A stretch of 64,000 nt of DNA. Source: an uncultured Rikenellaceae bacterium. Its GTDB lineage: Bacteria; Bacteroidota; Bacteroidia; Bacteroidales; Rikenellaceae. The stretch spans positions 1 to 64,000 of the forward strand of contig CASEGL010000005.1 of the NCBI GenBank assembly GCA_949287525.1. Direction: 5' to 3'. This document shows, piece by piece, positions 62,548-64,000 of this stretch. A program made the position numbers and the translations under genes. Under the pieces are notes generated by a model that saw nothing but the letters and a program-made list of their open reading frames with translations, was not told the origin of the DNA and searched no databases. Within the stretch, counting starts at the first letter, position 1, and each line of letters begins with the position of its first letter.

Positions 62548-62555
62548 TATCTTTG
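62548..62555 (+). promoter_or_regulatory. -7 box for the HMA-AraC regulator gene
   Basis: TATCTTTG is an exact TAnnTTTG match ending only 9 bp before the ATG at 62565. Transcription from it would give a leader of just a few nucleotides. Confidence 0.5.
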
Positions 62556-62564
62556 TCCTATGTG

Positions 62565-63134
62565 ATGGAAGAGTACAAACTATATATCAAGAACATGGTC
62601 TGCCGCCGCTGCATGATGGCGGTCGAAAAGCTGCTGCGCGACCAGGGCATCGAACCGATTGCGGTCGGACTGGGCATCGTCACCCTGCCGCACCCCCTGG
62701 CGGCGGAGGAGCGCGCCGCGCTGGACGGCGCGCTGCGCGAACTGGGCTTCGAACTGATCGACGGGCGGCGCGAACGGCTCATCGAACAGATCAAGAGCCT
62801 GGTCATCGAACTCATCCACAACGAGAACAGCGACCTGAAGGTCAACCTGTCCGACTATATCAGCTCCAACCTGCACCACGACTACAACTACATCAGCAGC
62901 CTCTTCTCGGAAGTGGAGGGGGTCACGATCGAGAAATACTTCATCCTGCAGAAGATCGAACGGGTCAAGGAGCTGCTCGTCTATGACGAACTCTCGCTGG
63001 GCGAAATCGCTGCCCTGCTCAACTATTCGAGCGTCGCCCACCTGAGTGCCCAGTTCAAGAAGGTCACCGGACTGACGCCCAGCCACTTCCGCACCATCGG
63101 AGCCGGACGGCGGCGCCCCCTCGACGAGGTGTGA
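62565..63134 (+). CDS. AraC-family regulator with N-terminal HMA metal-binding domain
   Basis: A 189-residue protein. Residues 4-66 form a heavy-metal-associated (HMA/CopZ-like) fold with the CxxC pair Cys13/Cys16 (MVCRRC) on the usual first loop, followed by a linker helix (about 67-90). A complete AraC two-HTH domain follows (about 92-177: LSDYISSNLHHDYNYISSLF and LGEIAALLNYSSVAHLSAQF, then GLTPSHFR). The fusion suggests direct binding of Cu(I) or a similar metal controlling DNA binding. It lies 165 bp upstream of the copper chaperone/ATPase gene, which it probably regulates. The ATG at 62565 keeps the first HMA strand; TTG or GTG starts just upstream are possible. Confidence 0.88.
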   Translation: MEEYKLYIKNMVCRRCMMAVEKLLRDQGIEPIAVGLGIVTLPHPLAAEERAALDGALRELGFELIDGRRERLIEQIKSLVIELIHNENSDLKVNLSDYISSNLHHDYNYISSLFSEVEGVTIEKYFILQKIERVKELLVYDELSLGEIAALLNYSSVAHLSAQFKKVTGLTPSHFRTIGAGRRRPLDEV

Positions 63135-63191: not shown

Positions 63192-63226
63192 GGAAATCAT
63201 GTAACATTTTCGGGAAATTATATAAC
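63192..63226 (+). promoter_or_regulatory. Tandem direct repeat, likely operator of the copper ATPase gene
   Basis: GGAAATCATGTAAC (63192-63205) and GGAAATTATATAAC (63213-63226) match at 12 of 14 positions and start 21 bp apart. The downstream copy ends at the -33 position relative to the -7-like box at 63248. This is the classical arrangement for an AraC-family activator. Confidence 0.65.
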
Positions 63227-63247: not shown

Positions 63248-63255
63248 CATCTTTG
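63248..63255 (+). promoter_or_regulatory. Imperfect -7 box for the copper chaperone/ATPase gene
   Basis: CATCTTTG differs from TAnnTTTG at its first base only. It lies 22 bp after the second operator repeat and 45 bp before the ATG. A weak core promoter would suit activation by the upstream regulator. Confidence 0.5.
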
Positions 63256-63299: not shown

Positions 63300-63566
63300 A
63301 TGGCTACGGTCAAGAAAACATTTCCGGTTCTGCAAATGGGATGCGCGGCATGTGCCGCACGGGTCGAAAACGCCGTTCGGGAAGCCGAAGGCGTCGCATC
63401 GGCTGCAGTCAATTTCTCCTCGGCCGAGGTAACCGTCACGTTCGATCCTGCCGTCACCTCGCCCGAACAGCTCCGCGACGTCGTCCGCAAGGCGGGCTAC
63501 GATCTGGTCATCTCCGAACAGGAGGCAACCCCCGACGCACTCGGCGAACGTCAAAAAAAAAAGTAA
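63300..63566 (+). CDS. HMA domain of the copper ATPase; zero-frame product is a CopZ-like chaperone
   Basis: An 88-residue reading frame encodes one HMA domain with Cu(I) ligands Cys15 and Cys18 (QMGCAACAARVE), the usual beta-alpha-beta pattern and a linker ending QKKK, then TAA. In homologous copper ATPases the same HMA domain is continuous with the membrane region; here that region follows at once in the -1 frame, starting on the last bases of a run of ten A. The zero-frame product alone would be a complete soluble copper chaperone. Either a programmed -1 frameshift makes both proteins or the gene is broken; see the heptamer entry. Confidence 0.88.
   Translation: MATVKKTFPVLQMGCAACAARVENAVREAEGVASAAVNFSSAEVTVTFDPAVTSPEQLRDVVRKAGYDLVISEQEATPDALGERQKKK
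63553..63563 (+). other. Slippery A-run (A10-G) with -1 frameshift heptamer
   Basis: Ten A's (63553-63562) followed by G contain A AAA AAG in zero-frame phase at 63557-63563, the same heptamer used in E. coli dnaX. The zero-frame codons are CAA AAA AAA AAG TAA, so the stop directly follows the slip site. Slipping back one base reads AAA AAA GTA ACC, which enters the ATPase frame. Strong downstream structure is not obvious; a short GGGCC/GGCCC stem lies at 63591-63602. Confidence 0.7.
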
Positions 63567-64000
63567 CCGACCTTAAACACCGCACGATCTGGGCCGTGGC
63601 CCTGTCGCTGCCGGTGGCGGTCATCGGGATGTTCTTCATGGATATGCCCCTGGCCAATCCGATCATGTGGCTCCTTGCGACACCGGTTCTCGTCTGGTGC
63701 GGAAGAAGCTTTTTCGTCAATGCGTGGCAGCAGCTCCGCCACCGCACCGTGACGATGGACACCCTCGTGGCGCTCAGCACCGGCATCGCCTACCTGTTCA
63801 GCCTTTTCAACATGCTCTGGCCGGAATTCTGGCTCGCACGCGGCATCCAGCCCCATGTCTATTTCGAGGCATCGAGCGTCATCATCGCCTTCATCCTGCT
63901 CGGCCGGCTGCTCGAAGCCCGCGCCAAGGAGAACACCACCACCGCCATCCGCAAACTGATGGGACTCCGCCCCCGCACGGTAACGGTCGTCGTAAACGGC
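63563..64000 (+). CDS. copA: Copper-translocating P-type ATPase, membrane part (partial, -1 frame)
   Basis: An open frame of 146 codons runs to the window edge without a stop. It begins VTDLKHRTIWAVALSLP and contains the first four membrane helices of a P1B-type ATPase (about 10-28, 33-50, 65-85, 97-115), with TMDTLVALSTGIAYLFSLFN and HVYFEASSVIIAFILLGRLLEARAK, both highly typical of copper ATPases. The actuator domain starts at the edge (TVTVVVNG). The phosphorylation and CPC motifs lie beyond the window. No ATG precedes the first helix in this frame; a GTG at 63596 lies inside it. Expression therefore most likely depends on a frame change at the A-run. Confidence 0.85.

Follow-up and report, generated by a model that had tools for sequence, protein, structure and literature searches.

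Bacteroidota are dominant gut and environmental bacteria. The one-component regulators CueR, CsoR and CopY were not found in this phylum by published surveys (PMC10141476, PMC4938975): CsoR was noted as absent in Bacteroidales (PMC4938975), and a survey of marine bacteria reported, for Bacteroidota, only two-component and ECF homologues (PMC10141476). A 2024 study of Bizionia (Flavobacteriaceae), in which copper regulators were sought, could point only to candidates whose copper site is unproven (PMC11213822). In the literature that we searched, with most subscription journals outside its scope, no convincing one-component copper sensor is named for Bacteroidota, and no paper describing an HMA-AraC copper regulator was found.

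Proteins related to parts of the locus described here are well known. AraC bound at I1-I2 occupies a tandem direct repeat that reaches the -35 region, which is the class II activation arrangement. Ada combines a cysteine-rich, metal-binding N-terminal domain with an AraC-type HTH, as does the protein described below, but the zinc-bound cysteine of Ada is a methyl acceptor, and Ada has no HMA fold and is not a metal sensor. The chaperones CopZ and Atx1 and the HMA domains of CopA are built on an MxCxxC motif and a beta-alpha-beta-beta-alpha-beta fold. In E. coli, a -1 programmed frameshift yields both a chaperone and a pump from one copA gene, CopA(Z) (PMC5009743).

The window, i.e. the whole 64-kb stretch of DNA that was analysed, encodes a protein in which an HMA-like N-terminus with a CxxC motif is joined to an AraC domain (Table 1). 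This arrangement, first proposed in a sequence-only reading of the window, was borne out by profile comparison, an AlphaFold2 model and a match to PF12833. The latter (HTH_18, the double-HTH domain of AraC/XylS proteins) was found with E=5.5e-15 and 55.9 bits against a cut-off of 33.6, and structure comparison of the model placed the C-terminal part with AraC-family DNA-binding domains. Like AraC, MarA/SoxS and Rob, the regulator has a complete AraC DNA-binding domain; unlike AraC/XylS proteins, it has no cupin or dimerisation domain and carries instead an HMA-like sensor domain attached through approximately two residues.

Table 1. Features of the regulator-copA locus (positions in the window; all on the + strand)
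Feature	Position	Strand	Basis and details
TATCTTTG, -7 box match (TAnnTTTG), probable regulator promoter	62548-62555	+	sequence; similarly short distances in several relatives
HMA-AraC regulator CDS, 189 aa	62565-63134	+	ORF call (ATG at 62565, stop at 63132-63134, 189 codons); HTH_18; family spread
HMA-like domain, residues 3-65	62571-62759	+	CopZ/ATP7B profile matches; AF2 model; Z ~7; hhalign
CRRC, residues 13-16, predicted metal-binding loop in MVCxRC	62601-62612	+	conservation in relatives
AraC-type DNA-binding domain, residues 68-180	62766-63104	+	PF12833; Z 12-15
Operator, direct repeat TGTAAC-N15-TATAAC, 21-bp period	63200-63226	+	spacing scan; PWM scan
CATCTTTG, -7 box of copA promoter	63248-63255	+	offset conserved in relatives
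copA 5' frame, 88-aa CopZ-like HMA product if unshifted	63300-63566	+	HMA PF00403, E=3.7e-16
A10, putative slip site, CAAAAAAAAAAG then stop TAA	63553-63562	+	identical in 6 genus genomes
CopA pump body, -1 frame	63554-64000, running past window end	+	TIGR01511

The HMA assignment required family profiles, since the domain is missed by single-sequence searches. Pfam gave no HMA match (PF00403) for the regulator sequence, NCBIfam run on the regulator alone likewise missed the domain, and weak Pfam matches were obtained for nine of 21 relatives (best E=0.0035). With a profile built from the 21 relatives, residues 2-64 could be aligned to HMA domains, those of ATP7B at E=9e-12 and of CopZ at E=3e-4. 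In the AlphaFold2 model (pLDDT 89), residues 4-65 form the beta-alpha-beta-beta-alpha-beta topology with MxCxxC on loop 1, and the AraC domain begins at residue 68. Comparison of residues 1-66 with Atx1 and CopZ gave a Z-score of about 7, a middling value that some unrelated ferredoxin-like folds also attain; the assignment is therefore carried by the motif and the sequence profile. The proposed likeness to the HMA domain of the pump is weak: it showed only at the level of profiles (hhalign to CopA HMAs, E=6.8e-5), and a BLASTP comparison of the domains returned no match. The regulator shares motif and fold with CopZ/Atx1 and CopA HMAs, and differs from them in its conserved MVCxRC with an invariant arginine, a short beta2-beta3 hairpin, and fusion to a DNA-binding domain.

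In the window, the motif reads MVCRRC. M11, R15 and C16 are invariant among the 21 relatives and C13 is nearly so, and in all 85 homologues linked to copA both cysteines are retained (CxxC lost in 0/85). Conversely, copA adjoins none of 11 homologues with SxRC in place of CxRC, nor one homologue with a broken N-terminus. Retention of CxxC thus appears tied to copA adjacency; this association is suggestive and is without significance once relatedness is corrected for. Because the tree shows only 2-3 changes or losses of the trait, we do not argue statistically from the loss of CxxC. The SxRC proteins form a paralogous subfamily (L157, L164, L169, L172-L175, L177, L180, L181 and L024), in several cases adjoined by PAS/sensor-kinase-like or response-regulator genes, and this branch has apparently lost the metal ligand.

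The regulator precedes a copper ATPase gene, as had been read from the window, and the same order recurs phylum-wide. The CopA product, which continues to about position 65500 of the contig, is a P1B-1 copper ATPase by its TIGR01511 score (606.6 bits versus a cut-off of 397) and its CPC motif (in ACPCALG). The family was present in 182 of 395 genomes and 95 of 171 genera sampled in phylum Bacteroidota, and hits with a genus name include Bacteroides, Dysgonomonas, Flavobacterium, Chryseobacterium, Mucilaginibacter and Niabella. Matches were also obtained in 30 plasmid records, every one of them from a Bacteroidota genus; those matches that are annotated are called only 'AraC family', 'helix-turn-helix' or, once, 'response regulator'. 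A same-strand copA lies no more than 1.5 kb downstream of the regulator at 85 of 137 loci (17/22 in the family set; 52/76 in the named set, which is similarity-ranked and includes some near-duplicates; and 16/39 in the broader phylum sample), and at several loci the order is regulator, small HMA protein, copA. At about a third of the loci copA is not adjacent, and the downstream neighbours are then often other metal-export genes. These include an SO_0444 Cu/Zn exporter (L017 and L018) and proteins named, by inspection and clustering, as HMA-membrane, CusB-like and multicopper-oxidase-like. In two Niabella species (L069, L070), selU/mnmH-like and selD-like genes, names assigned by reading the sequence, follow the regulator instead of copA.

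Within the genus of the window, the regulator was present in seven of 23 genomes. It accompanied copA in seven of the eight copA-bearing genomes and was found in none of the 15 without copA, a co-occurrence that may be inflated by clade structure. The one genome with copA and no regulator (G088) has no operator either.

The interval 63192-63226 upstream of copA had been proposed to hold the operator, and it does contain a direct repeat that recurs across the phylum in both spacing and weight-matrix scans. The consensus upstream of copA is TRTAAM-N15-TRTAAC, with half sites exactly 21 bp apart; other spacings gave no case or one. In the window, each half is preceded by an AAAT-like sequence. 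A weight matrix was derived from 16 family loci and applied to 118 other, independent regions; 77 of these outscored the 99th percentile of dinucleotide-shuffled sequences, compared to about one expected. In 51 of the 77 the TTTG of the -7 box stood at offset 25, and in 10 it was one base nearer (offset 24). Throughout the phylum, a constant 20-21 nt separate the repeat from the -7 box; in the window, CATCTTTG begins exactly 21 nt past the operator. No -33 TTTG element is apparent beneath the repeat. Because the repeat ends 21 nt before the -7 box, its proximal half appears to stand in for the -33 element, and the fixed geometry implies a class II activator. As a conserved pair of direct-repeat half sites at a set distance from the -7 box, the sequence is a candidate AraC-type site; it resembles the AraC site in extending as a tandem 21-bp repeat to the -33/-35 region, and differs from AraC/XylS systems in its use of the Bacteroidota -7 promoter. 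The regulator gene is preceded by a -7 box match of its own, TATCTTTG, 9 nt upstream of the ATG, and its mRNA is therefore probably leaderless or nearly so. Short distances of this kind (6-14 nt) were also seen at L004, L008, L017, L018 and L020.

A genome-wide search with a loose operator pattern returned three matches, one of them the copA site. Since the same pattern read backwards gave two, chance alone could account for such matches. One was singled out by its distance and gene context: it lies 21 nt before a -7 box and precedes a ZitB-like CDF metal exporter gene (L187:3772-4764, minus strand; contig C1 of this genome, G000). The encoded protein is rich in His at its N-terminus and carries a Cys-rich tail, CCVPGGCGGC, and its gene stands in tandem with a second CDF gene. 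Among seven genomes of the genus, this operator was present in G000 and its nearest relative, G059, and in none of the other five. CDF was therefore rejected as a general regulon member, and its place in the regulon would be recent.

Known copper sensors were not encountered alongside the regulator: no CsoR was found in the 21 genomes searched, no CueR above cut-off, and no CopY/BlaI-type protein in this genome. The regulator itself is none of these. It would share with them one-component control of copA, but their DNA-binding folds (MerR, CsoR and BlaI/CopY) and metal sites are unlike its own. Gene order, the conserved operator and its fixed place in the promoter, the link of an intact CxxC to copA neighbours, co-occurrence within the genus and the absence of other sensors together support the view, already held in the sequence-only reading, that the protein is a one-component copper-responsive regulator with a predicted metal site. 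From the computed domains, operator, geometry and linkage we infer that it binds metal, that the metal is Cu(I), and that it activates. We conclude with good confidence that the HMA-AraC protein, as a one-component regulator, activates transcription for copper export in response to Cu(I), and that it is very probably the switch by which export is turned on in Bacteroidota.

We consider it unlikely that the protein senses a different thiophilic or transition metal (Zn, Cd, Hg or Ag), or more than one metal, with CopA belonging to a general metal-efflux set. The operator before the ZitB-like CDF gene and the position of the regulator before the SO_0444 Cu/Zn exporter would allow for a response to Zn(II) or Cd(II), but the predominant target is a copper ATPase of the P1B-1 type, the CDF operator is confined to two of seven genomes, and multicopper-oxidase, CusB-like and CopZ-like neighbours suit copper. 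A metal-dependent repressor, whose apo-form would block the promoter until freed by Cu(I), is a little less probable still. A protein bound to the operator, which overlaps the -33 position, could obstruct polymerase; however, there is no apparent -33 TTTG for it to cover, and the phylum-wide constancy of the distance to the -7 box is that of AraC-type class II activation, while the position of repressor sites usually varies. We think it very improbable that the HMA-like part is just a structural or dimerisation module of a protein that answers to something else. Although the SxRC subfamily exists near other genes and the HMA domain goes unseen by Pfam in most members, such a role does not fit the presence of CxxC in every copA-linked copy together with invariant M11 and R15.

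In a Cu(I)-responsive activator, the CxRC of the HMA domain would serve to bind Cu(I) from the cytosol, or else Ag(I) or some other thiophilic metal. Two AraC domains of the metal-loaded protein would then sit in tandem on the 21-bp direct repeat, the one on the proximal half, at the -33 position, aiding the housekeeping sigma factor, and transcription would start from the TAnnTTTG -7 box of copA. Cu-bridged pairing of HMA domains is seen in chaperone crystals, and such pairing could keep both DNA-binding domains in place on the tandem repeat. Alternatively, metal could release a contact between the HMA and DNA-binding domains.

The target gene has a feature of its own. In the window, copA opens as an 88-aa HMA ORF that ends in CAAAAAAAAAAG-TAA, and the ATPase follows in the -1 frame. 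The A10 run is the sole A/T run of eight or more in the window, the GC content of which is 60%. A homopolymer error in assembly was considered and rejected, since A10 followed by an immediate stop is present in six separate genomes of the genus, between flanking sequences that have diverged (the window locus and L004-L008). At the other loci examined, including L016 from the seventh regulator-bearing genome of the genus, copA is a single ORF. The run would allow either programmed -1 frameshifting (on A_AAA_AAG) or transcriptional slippage; brief folding of single sequences revealed no evident shared stimulatory RNA structure 3' of it. As in E. coli CopA(Z), one copA would give a chaperone and a pump by a putative -1 shift. 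The arrangement is its mirror image, with the chaperone as the unshifted product and the pump as the shifted one, and the putative slip site here is A10 plus a stop. If A10 does shift, a single gene would supply the free chaperone by default and the full pump upon shifting. This site is possibly of equal interest to the regulator.

That HMA-AraC proteins are the main class of cytosolic Cu(I) sensor in Bacteroidota and, in addition, that copA of this genus is recoded at A10, we regard as a reasonably likely combination. The family, its operator and its promoter geometry provide a concrete candidate sensor for the phylum. If the reading is true, it adds a class of metalloregulator built from the copper-chaperone fold, which here would switch an AraC-type activator on a 21-bp direct repeat, and, in the genus of the window, the regulator would control a copA that is recoded at A10 into chaperone and pump.
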